Shown here piece after piece: positions 17,836 to 52,000 of a stretch of 58,210 bases of DNA (position 1 is its first letter; every line of letters starts with the position of its first letter). This DNA is from Actinocrinis puniceicyclus (GTDB lineage Bacteria; Actinomycetota; Actinomycetes; Streptomycetales; Catenulisporaceae): contig NZ_JAGSXH010000029.1 of NCBI RefSeq assembly GCF_018283645.1, positions 1 through 58,210 on the forward strand. The letters are read 5' to 3'. The notes beneath the pieces are model-generated. The model worked only from the letters and a program-made list of their open reading frames with translations, did not search any database and was not told the DNA's origin. Position numbers and translations under genes: made by a program.

Positions 17836-20800
17836 CTACTCGTAGCCGAGGCGGATGTGCAGTGTGAGGCGCTTGCCGTCGCGCAGCACGGTGAACAGGA
17901 CGACTTCGCCGGGCCGGTGCGACTGGATCGCCTTGACGGCGTCCTCGGCCGAAGCCGGCTTGCTCGCGCCGATCGAGACGATCAGGTCGCCCTCGGCGAG
18001 CCCGCCGAGGTCGGCCGGCTCGCCGAGTTTGACCTCGGAGACCTCGACGGTGGGCGCGCCGATGCCGGACGGGGTCGTGTCGTGCACGGCGATGCCCGCG
18101 AGCGTGGTGCTGCCGGACGGGGCCCCGGCGTAGCCCATCGTGAGGTAGGTGGCGTAGATGTCGAGCAGGCCCGTAGGCAGGACCCGGGCCGGGCGGCCGG
18201 CGCCGGCGGCCCGGGCGAGGCCGAAGAGGGGCAGTTGGTGACTGTTGCCGACCGGCACGACCGGCGTCATCGGGCGTAGCAGCGTGTCGGGGTGCGCGTC
18301 GAGCGCGTCGAGCACGACGCCCCAGTCCGGCGTGGCCATCGGCGGCTGGGCGGAGCTGAGGCTCACCTGGTCCATCAGAACCCCGTCAGGGTGCTGCGAA
18401 AAGGCGATCGCCTGCAGGCGCACCACGGCGCTCTTGTCCGAGCCCTGCGTCGCGATCTCCGACTGCCAGGGCAGGCCCGCAGGCCTCGGTCCGTGCGGGA
18501 TGCGCGCGGCGGCGAAGCAGAACGCCGTGGTCGAGGCCGGGCACAGGAGGCTCGCCGGATAGACCGAGGTTCCGTACTCGAGGGTCACCGACATCTCCGG
18601 GGTCGGGTTCTGCGGCGGCATCACCGCGTACAGGTACCAGTCGTTCAGCGAACTCGGCGGTCCGTTCTTGGACAGCACCTGGTGGACGATGTTCCCGGTG
18701 CCCTGGATCCGTGGCGTCACGTAAAAGGTGCCCATGGAGCCGAGCAGCGTGCCCGGCAGCGTGCGCCCGCCGCCGAGATGCACGGTGGTCAGGACGGCGG
18801 ACGCGTCGTGCAGCAGCGTCTGGTCGTTCGGGGGAGCGTCCCCGTCGTCGTGCAGGCCGATCACGACGGCCAGCATCAGCAGGAGCGTGATGCCCGCGGA
18901 GAACCGGGCGAGTTTCCGCAGTCCCAGGCCCGCGAGCAGCAGCGCGCCTGCGCCGATGAGCACCAGTGCCGAGTCGGAGGAGAATCGTTTGCGCACGGGT
19001 GCGAGCCGGCCGAGCGCAATGGGCGAGCCGGTTTGTCGCGTCGAGTCGTTCTGTGCGGCGAGCAGCCGCGCGCCGATGCTCTCCTTCTCCCCGCGGATGC
19101 CGGCGACCAGGTCGGCCGGTTCGATGACCGTCGAGCCGCGCTGCGCGGCGAGCCGCTGGGCGGACTCGAAGGCCCGATCGAGGTCCCGCGTCACCGCCAC
19201 CCCGGGCATCCGGCCGATCGTCCTGGCCACCGCGCCGCGCGAGTACTCGGGGTCTGATGCTGGGGGCGAGCCCGCGCACTGGCCGGGCAGATCGAAGAAC
19301 ACGTCTCGATCAATGCCCACGAGCAGGTCGAAGGTCCCGAGCGCGCGGCTGCGCGTCATCGCGAGACCCGACCGGGTCGCGTTCTCCAACGCTTCTGCGC
19401 AACTCGGCATCCTGGCCACAGTGTTCGTGCGCTTGGCCGACGCCACAGCCGGCACCGCGGCCAGGACCCTCGACGGAACCGGATCCAGCTTGTCGGGCGT
19501 GCGCAGCCGGCGACCGAACACCTTCTCGCAGTAGTCGTGGAACGCCGCCGGCCGGCCAGTCTCACGCAGCGCGCGGCTCAGCGCGGTCTTCGAATCGCCG
19601 AGCAGCCCGTAGGCGAGGTGCTCGACACGGACCTCACGTTCGCCAAGGCCGGCGGCGATCTTCTCCGCCGACCTGAACGCCTCGGCTGTCAAGCGCGTCG
19701 TGCGCAGCGAGCGCCCGTCGCGCAACATCAGCTCCGCGATGCCTTCCGACTCTTCGGCATCCCGCAGGAGAAGACCGGTTCCCGCGTGATCGCGGTCGCC
19801 CATCACGCGGATGGGGGCGAACGTTCCACCGGCCGACGTGTGCACCGTGCCGGCAAGGTCGAGCGAGCACAGGACGGCTCGCGGCGCGTCCTGCAGCGCT
19901 GCCGAAACGGCGAAGGTCACCGCCGCGGTCCACGGCAGGCTGCAGCGCAGTTCGACCGGCTTGCGCTCCAAGACGCCGAGCAGCTCCTCGACCTTGACCC
20001 GCCGCAGGTTGACGAACGCCTCGGTTTCGGCGGACGCGACCTTCTGTGTAGTCCACAGCTCGGGCCGCGCTGCGCCCTTCCGGCCATCGGAGGCGACAGG
20101 AGCGGGACCGGTATCGGTATCGGTATCGGTATCGGGCGGACGAGTCGTCCACACCGTCAGATTGGCCCATTCGCAGGGCGCTGCGGAATCATGGCCCAGC
20201 TCGGCCCGCCTCGCCAGGATCGCGTCGCGCACCGCGAGCGCGAGGTGCGTTCCGCCGAGCGCCGCGGCTGAGGCACGGGCGAAGACCCGCGCCCCGGGGT
20301 CGACGACCGCGTTGTCCACCGGAGCCTGCCCGCCGAGCACGCTCTGCGCCCCGCCGATCAGACAAGCGGTCGGCAGACCGATCGGCTCGTCGCGCGTGCT
20401 GACGGTCACGTGCGCGGCCCAGCAGGCGTGCAGCACCACGTCGCGCGGCCATGCGATGCCGTACGCGGCCTGCACGGTGATGATCCCGCCACCGTTGAGC
20501 AGAATGCCGCGCGTGGCGGCGCGCCGTGCCGTCACGCCGTGATTGGAGATCGCGGCCAGGTCGTACTCGCGCCCGCACGTCAGCTGCGCGCGCATCTGCT
20601 CGCCATCACTGGTCACCACTGTTTCGACACCGTCCGGCCAGGCCGTCGCCAGTTCGCGCAGCGCACTGCGGAATTCGCCCTCGTATCGCGTGGGGCCGCA
20701 GTTGAGCAGCGCGAGCCTGGGCCGAGCACGCACCGGCGCCGGCGCGGCGTCGGGCGCGGGCAGCAGATTGAGGTTCGGCATCACCACCGCGGCGGCGTGG

Positions 20801-23118
20801 TCCACCAACAGGCTGCCGTCACTCAGCGGCAGCCCGGCGAACGGGATCAGCGAGATCGGACCGTCCGGCACGACCAACAACACGACCGGATCATCACTCG
20901 GGCGCCCACGCAGCAACGCGTCGAGATCGGGCGGCAGCAGCGCCGCGGCCAGCTCACGCCAGACCGGGTCGGACACGTCGCTGTACCGGTGCACCTCGGC
21001 GATCTGCTCGGCTTCACCGCTGTCGAGGGCGGCGAGAACACCACCGGGCTTGCGGATGGCAGCCACCTGGCGCTCGTCGTGGGCGAGGTCTGCGATCCTC
21101 GCTCGGTGCAGGCTGATCCGTTCCCGGGTCACGGTGACCGTCGTGATGTCCCAGCCGCCATCGCCGGCCGCGCAGTGGTAGTAGACAGCGACCCGGCCAC
21201 CGAGCCGATCGAGCACCGAACCGAGGTCGACCAGCTCGGGAATCAGGGTCTTGGCGAAGGCGCGGGAATACCGGTCCTCGAGCTGCGCGGTCAACGCGGC
21301 CGCGGCGGCCACGCGCTCCGGGTCATCCTGAAGGTCACCGGTGCTGAGCCCCCCATCCTCCAATGACACACGGCGTTCGGCCTCCGCATCCCGGTGACTG
21401 CGGACCAGTGCCTGCAGCTCATCGTCCTCGGTGCCGGCCGACGCGGCACGCAGCGCGTCGGCGAGCGCGTTGCGGTGGGTCTCCTCCATCAGCCACAGCG
21501 CCAGCTCCGCGGCGCGATCGCGCTGGAAGCGCACGCAGGTGGCGAGCACCTCGAAGACCTCAGTGTAAAAGGCCGCATTGGCCTCGATCAGCGAGAAGCG
21601 GCTCGCGCCGCCGGTGAGACGCCCGCGGGCGTACTCCATGCCGCGCAGCGAGAGCTGGAGTACGGACAGGGTGAGCGACTCCCGCTGCGCGGTGAGGGTT
21701 CCGGCGCGCAGCGCGCAGACCGCCGCCTTCGCTTGAATCAGCGCCCTGCGCGACCGCCAGCCGGTGTCGGTGAGGCGCTGCCCGGTCGAGAGGTAGGCGG
21801 CTGCGGCGTCGGCGAAGGCACCGAGGCCGGCGAGCCGGTCGGCGATCAGCTCCTCGGTCTGCGCCTTCACGACGTCGAGCTGCCGGGCCTCGGCCGGGGA
21901 CAGATCGGCGAAGCCGTAAGGGGACTGCATCGCGACGACCACATCGCGCAGGCACAACGCCTCGACCAGTGCGGCGCGCTCGTCGCGCCATGCCAGGTCC
22001 CTGATCGAGTTGAGCGACTGCCCCAGCGCCGCGGAATGCCGCCGGGTCCAGGCCAGGCGCCAGGTTCCGCGCGGCAGCGGCACATCACCCGGCTGCGCCT
22101 CGCCGCCTGCCAGGCGATCGAGGGCGCGACAGTCGTCGATCAGCACGCCAACCAGCCGTGGAGCGCGCCTCCCAGCATCCTTGGCCGCAGCGGCGGCCGC
22201 CAGTTGCGCGACAGCCAGGTCGTACTCGCCTACCGCGCGGCGGAACAGCGCCTCGGCGGCGAGGACTTCGGGCCGGCCTGCGAGCCCGGGGTCGGCCGCG
22301 TGCCGGTTCACCAGCCGCTCGGCGTGATCGAGGGCGTTGATCTTCAGCTCATAGTCGACGGCGGTCGCCCCGGCCCAGGCGAGCATCGCCTCGTCGCCAC
22401 GTCGGCGGAAGTACTGCTCCGCCTCCGCGAAGGTCTGCCGCGCGCGGGCCGTGTTCTCTACCGCGCCGACCGGAACGGTGACGCAGCGCCGTACATGCCG
22501 CCGCACACCGCGCCGCAGGGCCGCCCGTAGCGGAGGCCGGTAGCCCGCGCCGGTTTGCACGCGCTCGTCGGTCACCGAGAACAACAGGTAGCGCAGGAGC
22601 CAGACCCAGACTGCCGCCGCGATGCTCGGCGCGAACCTGCCGAACGCCGGCCCCGGCGCGAAGATCAGCACGATGAGCGCGAGCCCGGTGACCACGGCGC
22701 TGTACGCGACGCTGAGAGTCCCGGCGACCGCCGCCGGCTTCTGGCTCAGTTCGGCACGGGTGCGCGTACTCTGCGCGCGGCGTGCCGTACGCAGCAGGAC
22801 GATGCACGGAAACAACGCGACGGCGGTCGGATAGTACTCGGATATGTGCTGCCTGATGATCCACTGCTGCAGGCTGTCGCTGGACTCGTTCGCGTATGCG
22901 GTCAGGATGATCCCGCCCGGTCCGGTGGCCCACCACCACCCGGCTGCGAGCACGGGGACCAACACCAGGGCGTCGAAGCCGAAATGGCGGGTCATGTTGA
23001 CCAGGCGGAACATCCACACCGGGCGCACGAGCCGCGTCCCGAACAGGCGCGGGCGGGCCGGCGTCGAGACCTGCGGCGCTACTGGCTGCGAGTTCAAGAC
23101 TCCCCCTCCGAGTCGCAT
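17836..23118 (-). CDS. Giant membrane-anchored CHAT (caspase-like) protease with Clp-N-like repeats and C-terminal PDZ domain
   Basis: 1760 residues from ATG 23118. In order: several hydrophobic segments (about 47-62, 95-112, 130-155, 160-180); a long helical TPR-like region (about 215-600); a CHAT protease domain (about 640-985) with likely catalytic His860 (SNHG) and Cys899 (HACWA); a linker with Asp-Thr repeats; Clp-N-like helical repeats (about 1130-1210, 1235-1285, 1300-1350; LTAEAFRSAEKIA and VRVEHLAYGLLG resemble ClpA/C N-domains); a transmembrane pair (about 1380-1420); and an extracytoplasmic part ending in a PDZ domain (about 1670-1755; GEPADLGGLAEGDLIVSIG). CHAT proteases are caspase relatives used in programmed death and defence. 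A TTG start at 23097 has a much better ribosome binding site (GGAGGGG) and may be the true one. Divergent from an unknown gene 42 bp away. Confidence 0.8.
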   Translation of the reverse strand: MRLGGGVLNSQPVAPQVSTPARPRLFGTRLVRPVWMFRLVNMTRHFGFDALVLVPVLAAGWWWATGPGGIILTAYANESSDSLQQWIIRQHISEYYPTAVALFPCIVLLRTARRAQSTRTRAELSQKPAAVAGTLSVAYSAVVTGLALIVLIFAPGPAFGRFAPSIAAAVWVWLLRYLLFSVTDERVQTGAGYRPPLRAALRRGVRRHVRRCVTVPVGAVENTARARQTFAEAEQYFRRRGDEAMLAWAGATAVDYELKINALDHAERLVNRHAADPGLAGRPEVLAAEALFRRAVGEYDLAVAQLAAAAAAKDAGRRAPRLVGVLIDDCRALDRLAGGEAQPGDVPLPRGTWRLAWTRRHSAALGQSLNSIRDLAWRDERAALVEALCLRDVVVAMQSPYGFADLSPAEARQLDVVKAQTEELIADRLAGLGAFADAAAAYLSTGQRLTDTGWRSRRALIQAKAAVCALRAGTLTAQRESLTLSVLQLSLRGMEYARGRLTGGASRFSLIEANAAFYTEVFEVLATCVRFQRDRAAELALWLMEETHRNALADALRAASAGTEDDELQALVRSHRDAEAERRVSLEDGGLSTGDLQDDPERVAAAAALTAQLEDRYSRAFAKTLIPELVDLGSVLDRLGGRVAVYYHCAAGDGGWDITTVTVTRERISLHRARIADLAHDERQVAAIRKPGGVLAALDSGEAEQIAEVHRYSDVSDPVWRELAAALLPPDLDALLRGRPSDDPVVLLVVPDGPISLIPFAGLPLSDGSLLVDHAAAVVMPNLNLLPAPDAAPAPVRARPRLALLNCGPTRYEGEFRSALRELATAWPDGVETVVTSDGEQMRAQLTCGREYDLAAISNHGVTARRAATRGILLNGGGIITVQAAYGIAWPRDVVLHACWAAHVTVSTRDEPIGLPTACLIGGAQSVLGGQAPVDNAVVDPGARVFARASAAALGGTHLALAVRDAILARRAELGHDSAAPCEWANLTVWTTRPPDTDTDTDTGPAPVASDGRKGAARPELWTTQKVASAETEAFVNLRRVKVEELLGVLERKPVELRCSLPWTAAVTFAVSAALQDAPRAVLCSLDLAGTVHTSAGGTFAPIRVMGDRDHAGTGLLLRDAEESEGIAELMLRDGRSLRTTRLTAEAFRSAEKIAAGLGEREVRVEHLAYGLLGDSKTALSRALRETGRPAAFHDYCEKVFGRRLRTPDKLDPVPSRVLAAVPAVASAKRTNTVARMPSCAEALENATRSGLAMTRSRALGTFDLLVGIDRDVFFDLPGQCAGSPPASDPEYSRGAVARTIGRMPGVAVTRDLDRAFESAQRLAAQRGSTVIEPADLVAGIRGEKESIGARLLAAQNDSTRQTGSPIALGRLAPVRKRFSSDSALVLIGAGALLLAGLGLRKLARFSAGITLLLMLAVVIGLHDDGDAPPNDQTLLHDASAVLTTVHLGGGRTLPGTLLGSMGTFYVTPRIQGTGNIVHQVLSKNGPPSSLNDWYLYAVMPPQNPTPEMSVTLEYGTSVYPASLLCPASTTAFCFAAARIPHGPRPAGLPWQSEIATQGSDKSAVVRLQAIAFSQHPDGVLMDQVSLSSAQPPMATPDWGVVLDALDAHPDTLLRPMTPVVPVGNSHQLPLFGLARAAGAGRPARVLPTGLLDIYATYLTMGYAGAPSGSTTLAGIAVHDTTPSGIGAPTVEVSEVKLGEPADLGGLAEGDLIVSIGASKPASAEDAVKAIQSHRPGEVVLFTVLRDGKRLTLHIRLGYE
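20109..20132. repeat. Four-copy hexamer repeat inside the CHAT gene
   Basis: CGGTAT repeated four times; on the coding (minus) strand it encodes Asp-Thr four times, in the linker after the CHAT domain. A hexamer can expand or contract without breaking the frame. Confidence 0.9.
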
Positions 23119-23160
23119 CGCGTTTCAGTATGCTCAGGTCGACCGGACGCGAAGGGGGAA

Positions 23161-23748
23161 ATGATGGAATCGCGATCCGAACTCGCGGTGCGTGTGGTCG
23201 AAGTGCTACCGGGCAGCCGATTCCTCGTGATCGTCGATGCGGACGACGTCGATCTACCCGACCGGGACGAACTCGGCGATCTGCGTTACCACGCGCGCAA
23301 GCAGATGCGCGCTCCGGTCCTCGGCATGGGCGTCGATGAGGTCTTCCTCGTCGAATCGGTGGTCGCCGCCGTGGTCAACGGCGTGATCAGCCCAGCGGTG
23401 TGGGCACCCTTCCCCGCCGCGGGCCGCTGGCTCGAGCGCACGATCCGTGCCCGCCGCGCGGCCGGCAGCGCCGCGAGCGAACCGGCCGGCGCGCTCACCC
23501 CGGCGCCCGTCCTCGGCGGCACTGAGAATCCGGACCCTGATTTCGACCCGGTCGCCCGCGCCGTGGCGCTGGTGCGCAGGGTCCTGAGCAGCCGGCCCGA
23601 CTGGGCCGAGCCGCAGTTGGAGTCGGTCAAGGGCGACGACGTCACCTGGACGGTGCAGCTGTCCGTGGCCGACCGCTGGAAGGCCTCAGTACACATGTCG
23701 CACGACGGCCACCTCGTCGAGATCGCCATCGACCCGGTGAAACGCTGA
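23161..23748 (+). CDS. Protein of unknown function divergent from the CHAT gene
   Basis: 195 residues, no signal peptide, one weakly hydrophobic stretch (about 60-80, VVAAVVNGVISPAVWAPFP), an Ala/Pro-rich linker, and a C-terminal domain with VTWTVQLSVADRW and VHMSHDGHLVEIAIDP. AAGGGGGA precedes ATG 23161; a second ATG follows directly. Only 42 bp separate it from the CHAT gene, so they probably share a promoter region and may act together (for example as regulator, substrate or inhibitor of the protease). I do not recognise a family. Confidence 0.75.
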   Translation: MMESRSELAVRVVEVLPGSRFLVIVDADDVDLPDRDELGDLRYHARKQMRAPVLGMGVDEVFLVESVVAAVVNGVISPAVWAPFPAAGRWLERTIRARRAAGSAASEPAGALTPAPVLGGTENPDPDFDPVARAVALVRRVLSSRPDWAEPQLESVKGDDVTWTVQLSVADRWKASVHMSHDGHLVEIAIDPVKR

Positions 23749-37602: not shown

Positions 37603-38853
37603 GTGAAGCTTCTGCACGCCGCCGATCTGCACATCGACAGCCCCTTGCGAGGCCTGGAGAGGTATCCGGACGCCCCGGTCGCGGCGATCCGCACCGCCAC
37701 GCGTCGCGCCATGGAGAATCTGGTCCAGCTCGCACTGGCCGAGGCGGTCGACGCGGTACTGCTCGCCGGCGACATCTACGACGGCGATTGGCGAGGCTAC
37801 GACACCGGCCTGTTCTTCCAGCGTCAACTGGGGCTGCTCGCGGAGGCGCAGATCCCCGTCTACCTGGTTTCCGGGAACCACGACGCGGAGAGCCAGATCA
37901 GCAGGAACCTCACCCTGCCGCGCAACGTGCACCAGTTCACGACCCATCAGGCCGAGTACGCGGTTGACGAGAAGGCCGGGATCGCAGTGCACGGACAGGG
38001 CTACGCGAGCCGCGCGGTGACCGACAACCTCGCCGCGCAATACCCGCGCGCTCTGCCAGGGCTCTTCAACATCGGCTTGCTGCACACCGCGCTCGATGGC
38101 CGACGCGAAGGACACGCGCCGTATGCGCCGTGCAGCGTGGAGCAGTTGGCCGCGCTGGGTTACGGATACTGGGCGCTCGGCCACATCCACAAGCGCGAGG
38201 TCGTCTCCGACCAGCCGCACATCGTGTTCTCCGGCAACATCCAGGGCCGTCACGCACGGGAAGCCGGTCCGAAGGGCTGCACCCTGGTCACCGTCGAGTC
38301 CGGCACCGTGAGCGTTGAGGAACGCCACCTCGACGTGGTGCGCTGGGCTCATCTGCAGGTCGACGCCTCATCGGCCAACGACTTGGACGACGCGTGCGAG
38401 CTTGTGCGACGACAGCTCACCGAGGAACGCGACCGAGCAGATGGACGACTGCTCGCCGCACGCGTCAGCGTGGTCGGACGCTCTGCCGCGCACACCGAGG
38501 TCTGGCGTGACCACGAGCGGCTGACCCACGAGGTGCGGACTATCGCCTTCGACCTGAGCGACGTCTGGGTGGAGAAGGTACGGCCTTCGACCCGGCCGCC
38601 TATCGAGGACGCAGCGGCCGGCGTCGAAGACGGTGCGGAGTTGATCGACGGCTTGATGCGCACGGCTCGGGAACTCGGCGCAGACGCTGACGCTCTGCGC
38701 GCGCTGATCGAGAAGGATCCGTTGTGGAGCAAGCTGCCCCGTGAGGCGCGCGAGGAGAACCACATCGGTTCCGGTGATCCGCAGTGGCGTGAACGGCTGC
38801 TCGAAGAAGCCTCGGATCTGCTGGTCTCGATGCTGCAGGAGCGTGTCCGGTGA
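37603..38853 (+). CDS. DNA repair exonuclease, SbcD/Mre11-like metallophosphoesterase (YhaO family)
   Basis: 416 residues. All phosphoesterase motifs are present: HAADLHIDSP, LLAGDIYDG, VSGNHDAES, LLHTAL and GHIHKREVV. The C-terminal third is the helical cap and ATPase-binding region. GTG 37603 is chosen since GGGGGGA sits 9 nt before it; the in-frame TTG 37594 is too close to that site. It overlaps the next gene by 4 nt (GTGA). With it, the protein should form an Mre11-Rad50-like nuclease acting on DNA ends. Confidence 0.9.
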   Translation: MKLLHAADLHIDSPLRGLERYPDAPVAAIRTATRRAMENLVQLALAEAVDAVLLAGDIYDGDWRGYDTGLFFQRQLGLLAEAQIPVYLVSGNHDAESQISRNLTLPRNVHQFTTHQAEYAVDEKAGIAVHGQGYASRAVTDNLAAQYPRALPGLFNIGLLHTALDGRREGHAPYAPCSVEQLAALGYGYWALGHIHKREVVSDQPHIVFSGNIQGRHAREAGPKGCTLVTVESGTVSVEERHLDVVRWAHLQVDASSANDLDDACELVRRQLTEERDRADGRLLAARVSVVGRSAAHTEVWRDHERLTHEVRTIAFDLSDVWVEKVRPSTRPPIEDAAAGVEDGAELIDGLMRTARELGADADALRALIEKDPLWSKLPREAREENHIGSGDPQWRERLLEEASDLLVSMLQERVR

Positions 38854-41800
38854 GAATCGACCGCCTCGACCTGGTCAAGTACGGCCGGTTCAGCGACCGC
38901 ACGATCGACTTCTCCGCCCACGGCGTGCACCTGGTCATCGGCCCGAACGAGGCCGGCAAGTCGACCATGCGCGACGCGATCACCGACCTGCTGTACGGCA
39001 TCGCGCGACAGACGGCCTACGGCTACCTGCACGACATGCGCGACCTTCGGATCAGCGCACTGCTGCGAGGTCAGGACGACCGGTCGCTGGAAGTCGTGCG
39101 CCTGAAGAAGGACCGCGACTCCTTGCGGGACGCCGACGGCGCCGTACTGGATCAGCGGGAACTGGACGCGGTACTGGCCGGGGTCGCGAAGGACGACTTC
39201 GTGAAGGTGTTCGCCATCGATCACGATGAGTTGCGCCAGGGCGGCGCCGCCTTGCTGGCCGGGAAGGGGGACCTGGCCAAGGCGCTGTTCGAGAGCCGCT
39301 CGAGCGCGCAGCTGATCGCCGTTCTCGATCAGTTGCGCGTCGAGCACGAGAAGCTGTTCGTGCAGCGTGGCAAGAACCCTGAGCTCAATGCCGCCCTGGC
39401 CGCCGACGGCCCGTACAACACGGCCCGTCGGGACCTTGCCGATAATCTCCTGCGTCCCGAGATGTATCGCGAGGCCGTGCGCGCGGTCGACGAGGAGCGC
39501 AAGGAGCGGGACGCGATCGTCGAGCAGCTCGGCTATGCGCGCGTCGAGGCCGCACGCCTGCTGCGGATCAAGCAGGCCTACGCGGGTATGGCGGAGCGGG
39601 CCCGTCTTCTGAACGAACGCGCGGAACTGGTTCAGGCCGGGCCGCGGGCCGACCAGGAAGCAGCCCGCCGGTACGAGAGGCTGCGGGAAGATCGCCAAGA
39701 GGCGCAGATCACATCGCGCGGCTTGCAGGAAAGCATCGCGCAGGCCCAGGCCAAGCTCGACCAGCTGGCGCCCGACCAGGCCGCGCTGAACCAGGCTGAT
39801 GAGATCACGTATCTCAACGATGAGTCCAACGCGATCGCGAGCGCACAGAAGCGCTGTGCGCAGGCGCAGCAGACGGCCGCAGAGCTACGTCAAGAGGCTG
39901 CCAACCGGCTGGCCAAGGCACGACCCGGCCACGACAGCGCGGTTCCGATCGAGCCGATCGCGCCCGTACTGCGCACGCGCGTGGATGAGCTTCTCGCACA
40001 GCAAGTGAGCCTCGACACTGAGCTGCGCGCCGCGCGCAAACACGCCAACGCCCGCGAGAGAGCACTGGCCAAGGAGCTGGCGAAGCTCGAATCGATCGAC
40101 TCGTCGAACGTGGATCCCGGGCCGTTGAACGCTGTGATCAAGGCCGTGCCCGCGACGCTGGCCAGTGAGATCACCGCCTTGGAGAAGCAGTGCGCCGCCG
40201 CCGAAGCGAAACTGCGCAAGTCCCGCAGGCGCTACGCGCGATTCGCACTCCCCGAGCACACCGCCGATCTCGCGCTGCCCGCCGACGAGGAGATCTCCAA
40301 GCACCGCAAGCTCGTGGACACGGCGGAGAAGACCAACAGCGGCAACAACGCCCGACGGGAAGAGTTGGAGGCGGAACTCGGCGAGCAGCGCCGCGCGCTG
40401 GAGAAGTTCCTGCGCCACGATCCACCACCGAGCGAGGCCGACCTTGAGAGCTCTCGCTCGCTACGCCAACGGCTCTGGGATCAACTGCGCCCGGGGCTCA
40501 CCGGCGACTCGCCCGCTCAGTCCCGGCCACCGGTGGCCGCGTACGAGGAAGCAGTCGACGCGAGCGACGACACCGCCGACCGGATGCGCCGAGAGGCCGA
40601 TCGGCTCGCCGAGCGCAAGAGCCTGGAAAGCTCGGTCGAACGCACCGAACAGAAGCTTTCCGAAGCGCGGCGGCAGTGCGACCTCTCACACGAGACCCTG
40701 CGCTCGCTCGACGAGCGCTGGCGCGACCTGTGGGCGCCCAGCGCTCTGGCGGCTCCCGCGCTGGAGATCACGACAGAACTGCTGACCGCGCTACGAACCC
40801 TGCGAGAGCAGAGCGACGACCACGACCGGATCCGACTCGACCTGGAGGCCGACCGGTCACAGGCCGCCGGCCACATGGCCCGGCTGCGCGCGGCACTGGG
40901 CGACGCCGGCGCACCGGTGCCCGACCAGTGCGCGTCCCTCGCCGAACTTCTCGAATCAGCCCTCGAATACCATGCGGCGCTGCGCGACGCCCTCAAGAAG
41001 AGGGCGAACGCGACGGCGAACAGCGACACCCTGCGCGGCGAGACGATCGACGCGAAACAGGAAGTCACGGATTGCGAAGCCTCGCTCGCGCACTGGGAGC
41101 GGCAATGGTCGGACCTGCTCGCCGAGCACGAGCTGTCCGGTACACCCGCACAGGTCGCCGCGGTCCTCACCGAAATCGACGAGATCGCCCGGCTCCACAA
41201 GGACGCTGCGCGTGAAGATGGGCAGGCCGCGCAAGCCCGAGCACAGGTGGACGCATTCACCGAGCGTCTGCGAACCGCGCTGGAAGCCGCGGGACAACCT
41301 CCACTGGCCGATCCCGCCCGCCGCCACCTTGAGGCCAAGTCCCTCAAGCGCTACCTGGATCGGCAGGCCGCGGCCGAAGCCGAACGCAACAGCCTGATCC
41401 AGCAGATCGAGGAGCTCAACCGGGAACTCGAGCACTCGCGGGAGAGCCGGGTCGAACACGACACCGTCCTGGCCGCGCTACTCACGCAGAACGCGGTCAG
41501 CGATGAGCAGGACCTGGCCGACGCCATCGAACGCGGCGCCGCGCTGCGCGAGCTCGACAAGCACCTGGGCAGCGTCGAACGTACGCTGGGCAGCAGCGGA
41601 GTCAGCCTCAGCCAACTCGAACAGGAGGTGGCGGAGCAGGACCCCGACCAGCTCGCGGCGCAGATCGCGGATCTCGACACGACGATCAGCCGGCTGGAGA
41701 GTCAGCGCAGCGAGAAGGACGCCAGGCTCGCGCTGGTAGAGCAGGACCTGAACCGGATGAACGGTTCGCCCGCCGCGTCCTTCGCGGCGGACACCGTCGA

Positions 41801-42329
41801 GCAGGAACTGGCCACGATCGTGCACCGCTCCCAGGACTATCTGCGCCTTCGGCTCGCCGAACAGATCCTGCTGGCCAACATCGAAGCCTACCGGCGGGAG
41901 AACCAGACACCGGTCCTGCGCCGAGCCGAGCACGTCTTCGCCCGCATCACCCACGGCCGCTTCCCGGAACTGGTCGCCGACGTCAACCGCGACGGTCGAC
42001 CCGTCCTGCGCGCACGCCGGGACTCCGGCCACCTCGTCGATGTCGAGGAGATGAGCGAGGGCACCTGCGATCAGCTCTACCTCGCATTGCGCCTCGCCTC
42101 CCTTGAGCGCTTCGCCGACGAGGGGCGCGCCATGCCGCTGCTGCTCGACGACGTGCTGATGACCTTCGACGACGGGCGCACCGGCGCCGGCCTGGAGATC
42201 CTCGACGAGATGGCCGACCGGTTCCAGGTCATCGTGTTCACCCACCACGACCACATCGGACACCTCGCCAAGGACGCACTGCCGGTGGGCCGGATCCACG
42301 TCCACGACATCACCCCGGCCGCCGTCTAG
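38850..42329 (+). CDS. SbcC/Rad50-like ATPase (YhaN family)
   Basis: 1159 residues. N-terminal ATPase half with Walker A GPNEAGKST (31-39), a long coiled-coil middle (about 200-950, rich in Glu/Leu/Arg heptads), and a C-terminal half with the signature SEGTCDQLYLALRL and Walker B PLLLDDVLMTFDD. No CxxC zinc hook was seen in the middle, which fits YhaN-type rather than classical Rad50 proteins. It works with the phosphoesterase encoded just upstream. The stop codon is the first TAG of an 11-bp tandem repeat. Confidence 0.9.
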   Translation: MRIDRLDLVKYGRFSDRTIDFSAHGVHLVIGPNEAGKSTMRDAITDLLYGIARQTAYGYLHDMRDLRISALLRGQDDRSLEVVRLKKDRDSLRDADGAVLDQRELDAVLAGVAKDDFVKVFAIDHDELRQGGAALLAGKGDLAKALFESRSSAQLIAVLDQLRVEHEKLFVQRGKNPELNAALAADGPYNTARRDLADNLLRPEMYREAVRAVDEERKERDAIVEQLGYARVEAARLLRIKQAYAGMAERARLLNERAELVQAGPRADQEAARRYERLREDRQEAQITSRGLQESIAQAQAKLDQLAPDQAALNQADEITYLNDESNAIASAQKRCAQAQQTAAELRQEAANRLAKARPGHDSAVPIEPIAPVLRTRVDELLAQQVSLDTELRAARKHANARERALAKELAKLESIDSSNVDPGPLNAVIKAVPATLASEITALEKQCAAAEAKLRKSRRRYARFALPEHTADLALPADEEISKHRKLVDTAEKTNSGNNARREELEAELGEQRRALEKFLRHDPPPSEADLESSRSLRQRLWDQLRPGLTGDSPAQSRPPVAAYEEAVDASDDTADRMRREADRLAERKSLESSVERTEQKLSEARRQCDLSHETLRSLDERWRDLWAPSALAAPALEITTELLTALRTLREQSDDHDRIRLDLEADRSQAAGHMARLRAALGDAGAPVPDQCASLAELLESALEYHAALRDALKKRANATANSDTLRGETIDAKQEVTDCEASLAHWERQWSDLLAEHELSGTPAQVAAVLTEIDEIARLHKDAAREDGQAAQARAQVDAFTERLRTALEAAGQPPLADPARRHLEAKSLKRYLDRQAAAEAERNSLIQQIEELNRELEHSRESRVEHDTVLAALLTQNAVSDEQDLADAIERGAALRELDKHLGSVERTLGSSGVSLSQLEQEVAEQDPDQLAAQIADLDTTISRLESQRSEKDARLALVEQDLNRMNGSPAASFAADTVEQELATIVHRSQDYLRLRLAEQILLANIEAYRRENQTPVLRRAEHVFARITHGRFPELVADVNRDGRPVLRARRDSGHLVDVEEMSEGTCDQLYLALRLASLERFADEGRAMPLLLDDVLMTFDDGRTGAGLEILDEMADRFQVIVFTHHDHIGHLAKDALPVGRIHVHDITPAAV

Positions 42330-44027: not shown

Positions 44028-44693
44028 GTGCACATAACGCTTGCCGGGGACCCGTTGGCGTTCGAGGGCGACTTCGAGACTCATGTGACGGTGCGCGGCG
44101 ACCGCACGGATGTCGACCATCTGGAGCGGTGGGCGGCTGGCGCTGAGCTGAAGCTGACGCTCATCACCCTTGGACGCGGCCGGGTACCGGTGCAGCCGAT
44201 GATCACGCTGCGCGGTTCCGGAACGCTCGGCGCGCAGTACACGGCGGCCGGGGTCGTGGTTGGGCGCCTCGAGACCGCGGGGTTCGAGGTAGCGCGGGTG
44301 AAGATCGAGGCGTCCCCGTGCACGCGCGGCGTGCCTGGCGACGATGAGGCCGCACTGCGTCTGGGCGCCGGATGCTACTTCGAGCACCACGTCAAGCTCC
44401 TGCTCGACGCCGGGTGCGACGTGGCGGCGTTGACGCGGTTGGTGGTCCCGCACGGTGCGCACGTGTCGTGGAACGCGCGGCGCGTGCTCGACCCCGGGCG
44501 GCACGAGCGGTTCGTGACCCAGCGCTGCCATGGGCTCGGGCTGGCGGCAGCGGGCAAGAGCCTGGAGGAATTGTGCACGATGCTGTACGAGTGTGGCTAC
44601 GAGATCGTGTCGGTGGAGCGAGAATTCGTGGTCTTCGACAGCGACGCGAGCCTGGACGCCGGGTGGATCGAGCGGAACGCGATCAGGGCGTGA
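44028..44693 (+). CDS. Protein of unknown function coupled to the AbiEii-type nucleotidyltransferase
   Basis: 221 residues from GTG 44028. No signal or membrane segment. Notable parts are VHITLAGDPLAFEGDFETHV, VARVKIEASP, a His/Cys-containing centre (GAGCYFEHHVKLLLDAGCD) and GYEIVSVEREFVVFDSD. It overlaps the next gene by 4 nt (GTGA), which strongly implies a joint role: cognate antitoxin or substrate-specificity partner are options. No clear ribosome binding site. Family not recognised; the AbiEi-type winged helix expected of a classical antitoxin was not seen. Confidence 0.7.
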   Translation: MHITLAGDPLAFEGDFETHVTVRGDRTDVDHLERWAAGAELKLTLITLGRGRVPVQPMITLRGSGTLGAQYTAAGVVVGRLETAGFEVARVKIEASPCTRGVPGDDEAALRLGAGCYFEHHVKLLLDAGCDVAALTRLVVPHGAHVSWNARRVLDPGRHERFVTQRCHGLGLAAAGKSLEELCTMLYECGYEIVSVEREFVVFDSDASLDAGWIERNAIRA

Positions 44694-46288
44694 GCGACGG
44701 GGCGTGGGACCGGTTCGGTTGGCGCAGCGCACGCGTACCGGGCACTGCGTTGCCCGACCATCAGCGCACGGCGCTGGGCGTGCCGCGCACGCTGCGGACG
44801 ATCTCGGGCACGGACCTGGTGCAGCGGCCGGTGTTCGACCCCGCACTCAAACAGTTCCCGAACGCCTACCGGGCCGGTGACCCGCAGTTCGCCGACGAGC
44901 AATCGGCGACACGTTGGCGCCAGGCACGCACGCGCGCCCTCGATCACGTGCTCGAGGCGATCGCCGACTCGCAGTGGGCCGATCATCTGGTCCTGCGCGG
45001 CAGCGTTCTACTGCGCACGTGGTACGGCCGGGCCGCACGCGAACCGGGCGATCTGGATTTCGTCGTACTGCCCGAGAGTTGGCGGATCGAGGAGCCGCGC
45101 ACCGACGCGATGCTCGAAGCGATCGCGCATGACGCCGAGCTGGCGGGTACCGGCGGCGGGGTGAGGATCTCGGCGGCCGACGCGGTCAGCGACGAGATCT
45201 GGACCTACGACCGGGTTCCCGGACGCCGACTGCTGCTGCCCTGGGACGCTGACGGCGTGCCAGGAGGCTGGGTCCAGCTCGACTTCGTGTTCAACGAGAA
45301 GCTGCCGATCGCCCCGGAGCCGGTCTGCGTAACGGCCGGCTCAGGCCGAGACGGCGCGCTGGTTTTGAGCGCGACTCCGGAGCTTTCGCTGGCCTGGAAG
45401 CTGCTGTGGCTGACCACCGACATGCACCCACAGGGCAAGGACCTTTATGACGCCGTCCTGCTCGCCGAGAACACCGGTGTGCGCTACGAAGTGCTGCGCG
45501 ACGTATTCCGGGACGCGAATGACGGCTACTTCCAGGCCCGTGCGCTACGCCCCTGGCACATCAGTACCCTAAGAACGGAATGGCAGCACTTCCACGACGA
45601 GCACCCAGGCCAGCCCGACAGCGACAGCGAGTACGTCCGGCGACTGGCGGCAGCCCTCGAACCCACCTTCGCAATGTTCGACGGACGTCCGGTCACCGAG
45701 TACGAGGCGCACACCGCGTGGCTCGGACCGCATGTCGAGAGATACCGGCACCGCCTCATCGAGCGGGACATGAACGCGATCCAAGAGGAGATGGCCGCGG
45801 CCCGCATCCCACCGTTGTCCGCCATCGTGATCACCCGGGAACTTCTCGGTCGCGACGATGTCAGCCTGGATGACGCGCGGCGCCTCGTCGTGAACCATCC
45901 CGCTTGGGCGCAGCGCCTCGCGTTCCGCTACGGCGACGGCGGGGAACTCGCCGCAGGGCTTGAGGCGATGGGCGTGGACCTGACCATCGAAGGCCGGCCG
46001 GCCTCGCCGGGGACCCGCCTGGCCCGCCGGGTACGCAGGGACTTCCGTCGATCCGGCGCCGCGCCCGAGGTCCTGCGCCTGCTCGCCGCGCTGCCCGCGG
46101 GATCAGTCGACCCAGCGCTGGGCAGCGAACGGATTCTCGCCGCCGTCGTGCTGCCGGCCGCCGGAGACATCAAGGAACTGCACCGCTGCCTCGCCCTCGC
46201 CCGCACCGATCGGCATGACCTACTCAAGGCCTCGGGCCTTGCCGGCCCCGATTGGCCACAGCGGCTGGATGCCGAACTCGGGCCATGA
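44690..46288 (+). CDS. AbiEii/AbiGii-type nucleotidyltransferase toxin-family protein
   Basis: 532 residues. The nucleotidyltransferase core lies at about 85-240: LVLRGSVLLRTWYG followed by REPGDLDFVV, the GS...DxD pattern of the AbiEii family, and then VQLDFVFNEK as the third acidic site; LAWKLLWLTTDMHPQGKDLYD is the usual family segment after it. The C-terminal 250 residues are helical and longer than in typical AbiEii (about 300). Known AbiEii proteins act as toxins, some by modifying tRNA. GTG start overlaps the upstream partner's stop. Confidence 0.8.
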   Translation: MSDGAWDRFGWRSARVPGTALPDHQRTALGVPRTLRTISGTDLVQRPVFDPALKQFPNAYRAGDPQFADEQSATRWRQARTRALDHVLEAIADSQWADHLVLRGSVLLRTWYGRAAREPGDLDFVVLPESWRIEEPRTDAMLEAIAHDAELAGTGGGVRISAADAVSDEIWTYDRVPGRRLLLPWDADGVPGGWVQLDFVFNEKLPIAPEPVCVTAGSGRDGALVLSATPELSLAWKLLWLTTDMHPQGKDLYDAVLLAENTGVRYEVLRDVFRDANDGYFQARALRPWHISTLRTEWQHFHDEHPGQPDSDSEYVRRLAAALEPTFAMFDGRPVTEYEAHTAWLGPHVERYRHRLIERDMNAIQEEMAAARIPPLSAIVITRELLGRDDVSLDDARRLVVNHPAWAQRLAFRYGDGGELAAGLEAMGVDLTIEGRPASPGTRLARRVRRDFRRSGAAPEVLRLLAALPAGSVDPALGSERILAAVVLPAAGDIKELHRCLALARTDRHDLLKASGLAGPDWPQRLDAELGP

Positions 46289-47314: not shown

Positions 47315-47539
47315 GTGACCGACCCCACGCAGCCCCCGTCCCGTGAGCAGATCCGCGACCATCTGAGCGTCAAGCTCAACAACATGCTGCGGCGCATGAG
47401 CATGTACGGGGGCGAAGGCGCGTTGTTGATGGTGTTCGACCTTCTCTTCCTCACTGAAGGACTCGGCACCACTTCCCCGAGGCTCAGTATTCGAACCTGT
47501 ACCTGATCATCGGCAACTCGGTGCAGCACCCGCCAGCCT
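47315..47539 (+). pseudogene. Frameshifted small gene, family unknown
   Basis: GTG 47315 opens a coding-looking stretch (SREQIRDHLSVKLNNMLRRM, then GGEGALLMVFDLLFLTEG). Near 47460-47472 the plausible protein continues in another frame (HFPEAQYSNLYLIIGNSVQH) and runs into the end of the next gene. This looks like a gene broken by one frameshift and cut at its 3' end. The preceding 46950-47310 has only weak coding character. Confidence 0.4.
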
Positions 47540-49008
47540 CAGGCGTTGAGCTCGGTGATGAGCTGGTGAAGTTGGGCCGCGTCGAGCGGGATCCGGTGGG
47601 CGAGGCGGTTGCGCGACTGCCAGAGGACACGCAGCCTCCTACGCTCAACCTCGTTAAGGGCGATGTGGCCGTTGAGGTTTGCTCCCCACATAGAGCCGAG
47701 CTCCATGGCGGTCAGCGTTCGGCCGGTGCCGCTCCCCGTGGCAGGATCGGTTGGAGCGCCGAAAGAGCGCGGCCCATACTTCTCGTCCAACCGCGCGAGG
47801 GGGATCCGGGCGCGCCGGCGGACGACGTCGGTGAAGTCCTCTCGGACTTCGTCCAGCCGGGGAAGCAGCGCGTGGTGCTGAGCGAGCCAGACCCTGGTGC
47901 TGATGGTGCGCGGGTCCGCCAGGTCGTAAGCGGGGTGCCAGCGCACGCGCCCATCCCAGCTGTCGATGAGTCCGCCGCTCCAAGCAAGCAGAGCGAGTTG
48001 GGCTGGCCGGTTCCCGCCCGCGGGGCAGTCGCCCCGGTCCGGTAGAACGGCGTCGCCCTCGGCGGTTTTGGACACGGCGCGCCTCAGCGCTTCAAGCAGC
48101 GTCTCGGGATTTCCGTCCCAACCGGCCAACTCGGCGGCCACCTCCAGGAAGGGGCCGCTGAGCTCGGTGACAGTCGCCTGAACCACTGCCTCCAGCAGTT
48201 GCTGACGGCCCACCATCCCCGTCGTGGGCGGCCGGTTGACGGCGACGACCGTGGCTGTGTCGAGTCTGCCGACGGCACCCCACCACCAATGCACGGCGAT
48301 TTCGTCGCGGGCGAGCTGGTCCGGCAGGTCGGCGGGTAGATCCTCCGCGGCTGCGACGATGAGGGCGCGTGGCCGGCGCAGCGGCGGGAGACCTGCTTCC
48401 TTGGCCGTGGCCACCAATTGCCGCAGGAAGCTGACAGTTGCGGAGGGAGTCTTCTCCCGCCATGCCTCGATGACGATCGGACGCGTCTCGGTGCGGCCGC
48501 CTGCCCCTCCGGCGAGCCAGGCGAGCACTCCGTCTGTCGAAGAACCGGCAGCCCGGGTTCCGTGGCCGGGTGGGACCAGCGCCCCGGCCGGTCCTGTGAG
48601 CTGTCCGGCAAGGCGGTCCAATAGTTCCGCAAGGGATTCGGCGGGCGTGACGGGGCGTGCGGGTGCCGGAGCGCGTACCGCAGTGCCGTTGACGACTCCA
48701 AAGCCTGACATGCCGTCGTCGTAGTCGAGCAGAGGCGCCAGGCCAGACCAGTGTGGGGCGGCCGGCCGCGCCGTCACCGCACAGGCGGGGACACCGTCAC
48801 GGACCGGGGCGTCGGCAGACAGCAGAATGAAGTCGCCGACCTCGTGCAAGAGCTCGGAGAGCAGCGCGTCGGCGACACAGTCCGGTCCCAGGGTCTGCGC
48901 TCGCGGCAGCAGCAAATAGCAACTGCGCCCTGCTCGCAGGTCCTCGTGAATCCGCCGGAGCCACCCTCGGACCCCAGGAAGCGTGGTCAGCGGGACGCTG
49001 GTGGTCAT
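47539..49008 (-). CDS. Protein with C-terminal HEPN-type Rx4H motif, partner of the STAND ATPase
   Basis: 489 residues, second gene of a two-gene operon; its ATG overlaps the ATPase stop (ATGA). N-terminal half has alternating strands and helices (CYLLLPRAQTLG, FILLSADAP, PIVIEAW, ALIVAAAEDLP). The C-terminal about 100 residues are helical, with ELGSMWGANLN, then LRVLWQSRNRLAHRIPLD: Arg466-x4-His471 fits the catalytic Rx4H motif of HEPN RNases, close to the Swt1-like group. HEPN domains are common RNA-cleaving effectors of toxin-antitoxin and antiviral systems. Role as effector of the ATPase is inference; the domain call itself rests on motif and helix pattern. Confidence 0.7.
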   Translation of the reverse strand: MTTSVPLTTLPGVRGWLRRIHEDLRAGRSCYLLLPRAQTLGPDCVADALLSELLHEVGDFILLSADAPVRDGVPACAVTARPAAPHWSGLAPLLDYDDGMSGFGVVNGTAVRAPAPARPVTPAESLAELLDRLAGQLTGPAGALVPPGHGTRAAGSSTDGVLAWLAGGAGGRTETRPIVIEAWREKTPSATVSFLRQLVATAKEAGLPPLRRPRALIVAAAEDLPADLPDQLARDEIAVHWWWGAVGRLDTATVVAVNRPPTTGMVGRQQLLEAVVQATVTELSGPFLEVAAELAGWDGNPETLLEALRRAVSKTAEGDAVLPDRGDCPAGGNRPAQLALLAWSGGLIDSWDGRVRWHPAYDLADPRTISTRVWLAQHHALLPRLDEVREDFTDVVRRRARIPLARLDEKYGPRSFGAPTDPATGSGTGRTLTAMELGSMWGANLNGHIALNEVERRRLRVLWQSRNRLAHRIPLDAAQLHQLITELNA

Positions 49009-52000
49009 CCCCGGGTGCTTCGCCCGACGGTGAGCGCCCGGAAGGTGATCGAGTCCAGGGCGTAGCCGCCCTCGCTGTCGTCGAGAACCCCGTGGTCGGC
49101 GAGCCTGTCCATGAGCCGACGCACCTCGTCCAGTTCCAGGCCGGTGACGGAGGCGATGTCGGCGTAGCTGCAGCCCTCACCCGGCTCGACGTACTCGGTC
49201 CAGGCGGACAACAGCTCGATCACGTCCTGATCGAGCTCCACCCGGGCGAGGTGGTCGGCGGCGTTGCCCGGTTGCTGGAAGAAGGAGGCGACCTGCTCCA
49301 GCGCGGCCTCCAGCGCGGCGCCGCCGCGGGTGACGGAATGGATCGTGCGCTCCACCACGTTCGGCCAGCCTCCCGTGGCGTGCGCCAGCCTGCGCCGCTT
49401 GTCCAAAGTGTCGAACGGGCATTCCGGCCAGGCGTTCAGGCTGTCGGCGTTCCATCGCTCGGGCCGCAGCACGCGCGTGACCCGTTCGTCCTCGAAGCCC
49501 CGCCAAGTCATCGGGTCAATGACGAGGACCGCGGCGCGGTGCACTGCGCCCGGGTTGTGAGACGTGTGGACGTGCAGCTTCTCGACGCACTCCCGGAGCA
49601 ACTGGATGCCGCACATGCGAAGTTCGGCGATAACGACGCTGGGCTGCCTGCTGCGCGTGTCCTGTGTCAGCACACGAACGACATCGTCCGACCCGGTGGC
49701 GCGCACGGTCAGACCGCGGGCTTCGGCGTACGACGTGATGGCGAGGCGCAGCAGTTCCGGACCGTGCGCCTTGGTCAGGCACACCACGGTCACGCCCGGG
49801 CTGGTTGCCTCGTACAGTTGCTGCTCGGTCAGCGGGCTGTATAGCGCGACGCCGTTGGACTGGTTGTTGCCAACCAACCGCCTGGAGAAGCGCGGGTTGT
49901 AGTCATACGGAAGGCTGAACTCGGTCTGCCGGAGCTCCAGTTCAAGATCCTCGCGGGTGCCGAGCATGCGCACCACGTTGGGGCTACGCACCGCGTAGTT
50001 GCGGCGGTCGGTCTCCACCAGCAGACCGAGGCCCACCATCTCGTCCAGGTAGATCTTCACATCACTGGCGGTGAGCTTGTTGAATCCGTCGGGCCAGTGC
50101 CGCTTCGCCTCGGTCAGCAGGTCGTCGGCGTCGTAACCGTGCTGGAAGCGGTCGGCGCGGCTGCGCAGCGCGATCACCAGCGCGAGCACCCGGTATCGGT
50201 CCTCCAGATTGATCGTAATGCGCAGGCGGTCGGCGATGCTGCGGTGGACCTGTGCCGAGTCGGCGACTGCCCGGATGTCCTCCTCGGTGACCACGATCGG
50301 CCACTGCGCCGAACCGAGCGGCTTCTCACGCAACGCCGCGATCAGTCGATCACAGAAGATCTGCACCAGGCACGCCTGGTAGTTGGTCGCGGCCAGCACC
50401 CGCCACACCAGGCTGGGGTGCTCGAAGCGGTAGCCGAACGCGGCCATGGGCGCCACCACGAGCCGCTGGGCCTCGATGGGCTTGAGCGGGCCTATGCGCA
50501 TCTCTGCGCCGTGGGCGAGCGGCACGTTGGAAAGGTGGCTGAACCGCTGCACCTGGTGCAGACCGGCGAAGACGATCTTGAACCGTCGATCGGTGGCGTC
50601 CATCAGCCCCTTAAGGCGAGCGACGTTGGCGAAGGTGACCGCGCCGCCCGGGCCGCGGACCGCTTTCGAGTCGGCCATCAGGAAGGCGTCCGCCTCATCG
50701 GCCAAGACAAGGACGCGGCGCTCGCGGTTCTGCTCGAGCCACTGCCGCACCTGCTCCAACAGGACGTCGGCGCCCAGCTTGGAGGACACGCGCGGGTTGA
50801 GGACGCCGACCCGCTTGAGCTCGGAACCGAGCACGGACCAAATGCGGTCGGCCGGTTCGGCCTCCCCTACTCCTCGTGCCTTCAGGTCGAGGTAGACCGC
50901 CTTACGGTCCGGTGTCACCGGGAAGCTGGCCTCGACCTTGCGCAGCAGGGCGGATTTGCCGAGCTGGCGTCCCCCATAGAGGAACAGCGCGCCGAGCGGG
51001 TCGACGACGGTCGCCATCTCCTCGTTGCGGCCGTAGAAGACCTCGGGCGGCACCAGGCCGGCCACGAACGGGGTGTACGGCGTGAAGGCGGTCCACGGCA
51101 GCGTCACCCGCTGGGTCGCGCGGAACGAGCGGGGCGAACGGGCCGCTATCCAACCGAACACGGCCGGGTCTACGACCAGGGCCTGCTGCGGCGAGGTCTG
51201 CGCGTGCGCGGCCATCGCCCGCCGCCCGGCCAAACCCATCGGATACAGGTAAAGGATGATGCAGGCGTCGGACTCGTTGGGCAGCAGTTCCAGTGGGCTG
51301 CGTCCGCGCTGCTCGTCGGCGACCACGAGGACCGTGTAGGTCGTCGCTCCGGACCCGAGGGCGGCGACGTAGCCGGGAGCGGCCTCACTGGCCGTCAGCT
51401 GGGCGGTCAAACGGAGGACACCGCGCACCTGCTGGTGGTTGTCGCGGACGGGCGCGCGCCCCTCCAAGCCCAGGATGCGCAGGACGGTGGGGACATGCTT
51501 CTGCCACTCCGACCCACGTCTGGTCGGCACGCAGAGCGCGTCCCATGCGTCGAGTCCGCTTCGCGAGCCCTCAGTCAGCGGCTGCCCGTCGGCGTACCGC
51601 TCCGCCCACGGCCGGGCCGAATAACCGTGCTGTCCGGCCTTCGTCAGGGGCGCCGCTTCCAGATCGGCCATGAACCGCGCCAACTCGTCGCCCCAGTCCA
51701 GGCCAGTCCAGTCGGGCAGGCTGCTGCCCTCCCGCAACAGCGCGAGGCACTCCTCGGCGCTGACCGTGTCACCGGCCTCGAGCAGCTCGGTAATCCGCCT
51801 GCGGTCATGCTCGGATACCACCAGCGACTCCAGCCGCTCGCGCAGTCGCTTCACATACGACTCGAGCCTCAGATTCAGCTCGATCTCAAACCGGTGGATC
51901 TCCTCGACCACGTCGCGGAACGCGCCGTCGGGCGTGGGCTGTTCGAGGTGCTCCAGCCTGCCGACCAGTTCGCGCTCGGTCTGGTCGTCGAGGCCCTGGG

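Follow-up and report, generated by a model that had tools for sequence, protein, structure and literature searches.

CHAT proteases such as Csx29 are effectors that are unlocked by cytosolic partners. Csx29 has been described as a TPR-CHAT protease that acts together with an RNA-guided protein bound to it (PMC10028731, PMC9729208). In the EACC1 systems of actinobacteria, a small gene with a hydrophobic segment lies 5'-3' in one operon with a gene for a caspase-superfamily protein, which has an N-terminal peptidase and a variable C-terminus (Kaur et al. 2020, PMC7159879). GAP1-N2 membrane GTPases combine a cytosolic GTPase with four-plus-one transmembrane segments and a PDZ domain beyond the last of them (PMC7159879). 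EACC2 systems carry an EACC2 module at the N-terminus, and one group of them also has a TRADD-N partner; C-terminally, the caspase is joined to parts that vary and can be PDZ domains, or to transmembrane segments and extracellular domains (PMC8195603). The conflict-system literature also describes Clp-N repeats within a system linked to a caspase. DegS/HtrA enzymes are membrane-anchored serine proteases, in which the protease lies on the same side as a PDZ domain that reads exposed C-termini.

We analyzed a 58,210-nucleotide stretch of the Actinocrinis puniceicyclus genome (the window), in which a gene for a large CHAT-PDZ protein diverges from a small gene. The features of the locus are as follows.

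17836 to 23118, minus strand: whole CHAT-PDZ ORF, 1760 aa (ORF calling, Pfam, GC3)
22576 to 22983, minus strand: N-terminal membrane block, residues 46-181 (four hydrophobic segments, flanking charges)
21199 to 22473, minus strand: helical region, residues ~216-640, TPR-like by place, its C-terminal part homologous to TPR-CHAT proteins
20155 to 20964, minus strand: CHAT domain, residues 719-988 (Pfam E 1e-17)
20539 to 20541, minus strand: His860, predicted catalytic (AISNHG, invariant in 8/8)
20422 to 20424, minus strand: Cys899, predicted nucleophile (VLHACW, invariant in 8/8)
19549 to 19692, minus strand: Clp-N repeat A, residues ~1143-1190, EHLAYGLLG (Pfam, internal-repeat shuffle test)
19039 to 19185, minus strand: Clp-N repeat B, residues ~1312-1360 (Pfam, repeat A versus B shuffle test)
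18919 to 18975, minus strand: hydrophobic segment 1382-1400, membrane hairpin or crossing (hydrophobicity)
18853 to 18909, minus strand: hydrophobic segment 1404-1422, likely transmembrane (hydrophobicity, charges)
18109 to 18846, minus strand: region 1425-1670, no family match (Pfam)
17848 to 18096, minus strand: PDZ domain, residues 1675-1757 (Pfam PDZ_2 E 7e-10)
23119 to 23160: gap of 42 bp separating the starts; both promoters presumably lie within it or overlap it
23161 to 23748, plus strand: divergent partner gene, 195 aa, no family match (homologue at the same place in Catenulispora rubra)

Like Csx29 of Craspase and the TPR-CHAT proteins of the Streptomyces order, the window protein has a helical, TPR-like region followed by a CHAT domain with His and Cys. 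The Streptomyces-order proteins, however, end straight after CHAT, and two of them have only an N-terminal hydrophobic stretch. Csx29 pairs with a type III-E CRISPR effector, whereas the window protein adds Clp-N repeats, a C-terminal transmembrane segment and a PDZ domain and has a different partner. The pairing with a small gene recalls EACC1 systems, but the window genes are divergent, the peptidase is central and the partner lacks PF19953. The membrane layout ending in PDZ recalls that of the GAP1-N2 proteins, with CHAT in place of the GTPase. TPR-CHAT and Clp-N are not described in the EACC2 work, although the fusion of a caspase to PDZ or membrane parts is similar, and, unlike DegS/HtrA, the window enzyme would be a cysteine protease, probably on the opposite side of the membrane from its PDZ domain. 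No open-licence paper was found on CHAT combined with Clp-N and/or PDZ. The first-pass annotation had considered the domain order undescribed. The papers searched and the sampled genomes agree with this, but precedents exist for every pairing of the parts. The comparison suggests a variation on membrane-linked caspase systems that is neither EACC1 nor Csx29. We give an even chance to the reading that it is a membrane-tethered TPR-CHAT caspase-like protease whose PDZ tail senses exposed C-termini and whose small neighboring gene encodes a regulator or substrate.

The first-pass annotation had placed the ORF at 17836-23118, and these exact coordinates and all the domain features it named were found again. 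The protein consists, in order, of four hydrophobic segments, the helical region, CHAT, two Clp-N repeats, two hydrophobic segments, region 1425-1670 and PDZ, and the ORF has a coding-type GC3 throughout (87.7% overall, 85-96% per domain). The ATG at 23118 is without a clear Shine-Dalgarno sequence; by reading, a TTG at codon 8 (23097) is preceded by a strong one (GGAGGGGGAG) and may be the real start. Two AlphaFold models were poor (pLDDT 35 and 42), and no PADLOC model matched up to E 1.

A full-length relative was found in Catenulispora rubra DSM 44948 (locus L025), a protein of 1398 aa with 28-31% identity, 31% over residues 23-1005 of the window protein, and with PDZ in common. Four hydrophobic segments lie at its N-terminus, a helical region and a CHAT domain that keeps His and Cys come next, and a single transmembrane segment precedes two PDZ domains. 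The full-length CHAT-PDZ protein thus occurred in two of the 14 genomes of the family, the window's own and that of C. rubra. No third member was found in 99, 118, 178 and 149 genomes of the order, class and phylum, overlapping sets with ~400 distinct actinobacterial genomes, which yielded plain TPR-CHAT proteins only; in the scans of genome contigs, which are sparse pattern searches, absence is weak evidence. A tblastn search of 72,556 plasmids gave no homologue, and neither did a pattern scan of viral contigs. With only two members known, conservation statistics are thin.

We also surveyed long CHAT ORFs in 108 actinomycete genomes. None of the seven ORFs of at least 1200 aa that were read carried Clp-N, transmembrane segments or PDZ C-terminal to CHAT; they were CHAT-STAND-TPR or trypsin-CHAT-STAND-TPR proteins, or had CHAT at the C-terminal end. 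This control was partial: ten of its 14 loci were inspected, L076, L079, L084 and L085 being left out, L083 and L086 gave no ORF over the size limit, and the L082 ORF lay on the strand opposite the CHAT match. One actinomycete ORF (L074:4083-9083, plus strand) by reading began with a trypsin-like part and continued with CHAT, a STAND-type ATPase and TPR repeats.

The CHAT domain was recognized by Pfam (PF12770) at residues 719-988 with 65 bits against a cut-off of 24. We aligned eight CHAT sequences, those of the window, C. rubra, five Streptomyces-order TPR-CHATs and one short CHAT ORF from the window's family, and found 12 invariant columns, with His860 and Cys899 among them in all eight. 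The two residues had been named, with correct numbers, as the mark of a CHAT protease, and both are retained by the full-length homologue and by the six other CHAT proteins. By sequence, the window CHAT is a putative protease with an intact His/Cys dyad.

The first-pass annotation overlooked a TPR-CHAT-type helical region N-terminal to CHAT. Residues ~483-993, the pre-CHAT part and CHAT, aligned with five Streptomyces-order TPR-CHAT proteins (hhalign E 6e-29); the part of the helical region N-terminal to ~483 gave no hhalign alignment with these proteins, and Pfam TPR had no match. Two Streptomyces-order TPR-CHATs (L039:4794-8198 and L041:5090-7789, both minus strand) have a hydrophobic stretch ahead of the TPR region and are possibly simpler, membrane-tethered proteins.

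The proposed EHLAYGLLG-type Clp-N repeats passed the Pfam cut-off, and the two copies were similar beyond chance. Pfam Clp_N scored 21.6 bits in the whole protein and 27.5 bits (E 3.6e-6), in two stretches, in residues 1040-1380 alone, against a cut-off of 20.7, and in the comparison of repeats A and B (z 9.2) none of 1000 shuffles was as good. Foldseek with a low-confidence model of this part placed ClpC-type N-domains at ranks 1-3, none of them significant. Two additional repeats read by eye in the window protein failed shuffle tests. The corresponding region of the C. rubra relative was no better than chance, with 751 of 1000 shuffles scoring as high, and Clp-N is thus a variable extra. The conserved core would then comprise the membrane block, TPR-CHAT, the membrane segment, PDZ and the divergent partner.

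Hydrophobic segments had been reported near both ends of the protein, and we located four at the N-terminus (46-64, 91-109, 135-153, 162-180) and two ahead of the PDZ part. The charges flanking the N-terminal segments were +6, +1/-2, +5/-1, +1 and +9/-2. Since these give a clear N-in/C-in block, the TPR-CHAT part should be cytosolic, and the cytosolic side assigned to CHAT in the first-pass annotation is well supported by positive-inside charges. The C-terminal PDZ domain was confirmed by three Pfam models that agree on the C-terminus (PDZ_2, 39.5-42.4 bits against a cut-off of 27), and its nearest counterparts are HtrA/DegS PDZ domains.

The side on which the PDZ domain lies is not certain, since the window protein has two hydrophobic segments ahead of it and the homologue has one. 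Should segments 1382-1400 and 1404-1422, which are separate, both cross, PDZ would be cytosolic, like the intracellular PDZ fused to a caspase in EACC2 systems (PMC8195603), and the protein would be a membrane-docked cytosolic protease scaffold that recruits intracellular partners or substrates through PDZ, with no transmembrane signal. We consider this arrangement rather unlikely, given that the C. rubra relative has a single segment ahead of its PDZ domains, that the 27 residues after 1424 contain no K/R and five D/E while positive residues lie before and between the two segments, and that Cys 1526 and Cys 1534, the sole cysteines C-terminal to the membrane segments, would suit a disulphide outside the cell. 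The charges after 1424 and the single crossing in the relative favor, without proving, a PDZ domain outside the cell; the extracytoplasmic PDZ of the first-pass annotation is likely, but the two segments ahead of the window PDZ count against it.

The genomic setting of the two copies was examined. In the window, the CHAT-PDZ gene is neighbored by two flavoprotein disulphide reductases, the partner gene and an ABC transporter; no defense genes were seen adjoining it, and no Cas7-11/gRAMP gene was present among its immediate neighbors. Around the C. rubra copy lie genes for two tyrosine recombinases and for a NACHT-type ATPase of 1702 aa (L025:428-3817, L025:10050-15158), the latter with weak similarity to Avs1b (PADLOC E 6e-5). 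These recombinases and the ATPase hint at a mobile, conflict-type setting in C. rubra. Elsewhere in the window we observed a 1159-aa AAA_27 (YhaN/SbcC-like) ATPase with PADLOC similarity to LmuB (38850-42329, plus strand; E 4e-14) and a 638-aa ORF with an AbiEii nucleotidyltransferase domain (44372-46288, plus strand; PADLOC E 4.6e-163, Pfam 3.9e-19). At 47539-54752 on the minus strand, the gene for an AAA_22 ATPase of 1915 aa, whose C-terminus gave a very weak wHTH match (E 0.07), shares 4 bp with a gene for 489 aa that had no Pfam or PADLOC match, and the two form a possible two-gene system.

The ordinary neighbors in the window and the resemblance of PDZ to HtrA/DegS domains would fit a housekeeping envelope-quality protease, DegS-like or acting in regulated intramembrane proteolysis, that releases or degrades one regulator and has no role in phage defense or cell death. 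A housekeeping function is ill-suited to a gene so rare, found in two of 14 family genomes and nowhere else sampled, and the C. rubra copy adjoins two integrases and the NACHT-type ATPase; we judge this explanation rather unlikely.

The partner of the C. rubra gene encodes 170 aa at the same place and in the same orientation, 67 bp from the CHAT gene. The similarity of the two partners was weak but significant (BLASTP E 0.003; z about 5, with 1-2 of 1000 shuffles reaching the score). The CHAT-PDZ and partner genes co-occur in exactly the same two of 14 family genomes: a two-sequence partner profile gave convincing matches in these two only, and in 118 genomes of the class its one further match was spurious. 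Weak profile matches at L028 (C. rubra) and L112 (another actinomycete) lay, by reading, inside cellulase-type and lyase-type ORFs and were discarded. The 195-aa protein had no Pfam match up to E 10. In size and in its glycine-containing hydrophobic segment it resembles EACC1 as described in PMC7159879, but its membership in EACC1 (PF19953) was rejected, with no hmmscan match and an hhalign probability of 0.2%. An EACC1 search of the window's genome matched contig C9, not the CHAT-PDZ locus.

The tight, conserved divergent pairing and the co-occurrence would also be expected of a toxin-antitoxin-like pair, in which the small protein is the antidote to a CHAT protein that is toxic when freed. 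Such pairs, however, are seldom divergent rather than operonic, the small protein lacks any known antitoxin domain and the toxicity is a supposition, which makes this explanation unlikely. Very improbable is a degenerate HtrA-like protease in region 1425-1670 that would make the tail a DegS-like sensor, since the HtrA-like motifs seen by eye (GTFYVTP..IVHQV, VVLDALDA, GNSHQLPL) and the weak beta strands of a very poor model were unsupported by hhalign against HtrA (PDZ only; probability 0.2% elsewhere) and by Pfam (no trypsin), and the region is absent from the C. rubra relative.

The reading as a membrane-tethered protease with a sensing PDZ tail has its sequence basis in CHAT with His/Cys, the TPR-CHAT region, the membrane segments, the two Clp-N repeats, PDZ and the conserved partner, and its mechanistic steps are all inferred. 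The TPR-CHAT-ClpN part would lie in the cytosol and the PDZ part outside, where PDZ would bind exposed protein C-termini from a damaged envelope or from phage proteins; alternatively, the trigger could be the loss of inhibition by the small partner. Either event would alter the TPR-CHAT conformation and free the protease to cleave a substrate in the cytosol, which may be the small partner. Unfolded peptides or adaptors would dock on the Clp-N repeats, a lineage-specific extra. Sensing of envelope stress or infection, which had been proposed from the domain order, is something we infer only. For an actinobacterium that grows as hyphae, a stress response or the death of a compartment would be the most plausible result.

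More specifically, and tentatively, the protein could be a single-protein transmembrane receptor-caspase, in which an extracytoplasmic PDZ reads the ligand and directly unlocks the cytosolic protease while the small partner restrains it; this is possible, but doubtful. If true, a single polypeptide would correspond in function to a death receptor together with its caspase. The conserved small partner is the first candidate regulator or substrate, and a CHAT protease that is built into the membrane and ends in PDZ would offer bacteria a simple way in which signals from the envelope could lead to caspase-like proteolysis, with no intermediate kinase or ATPase.
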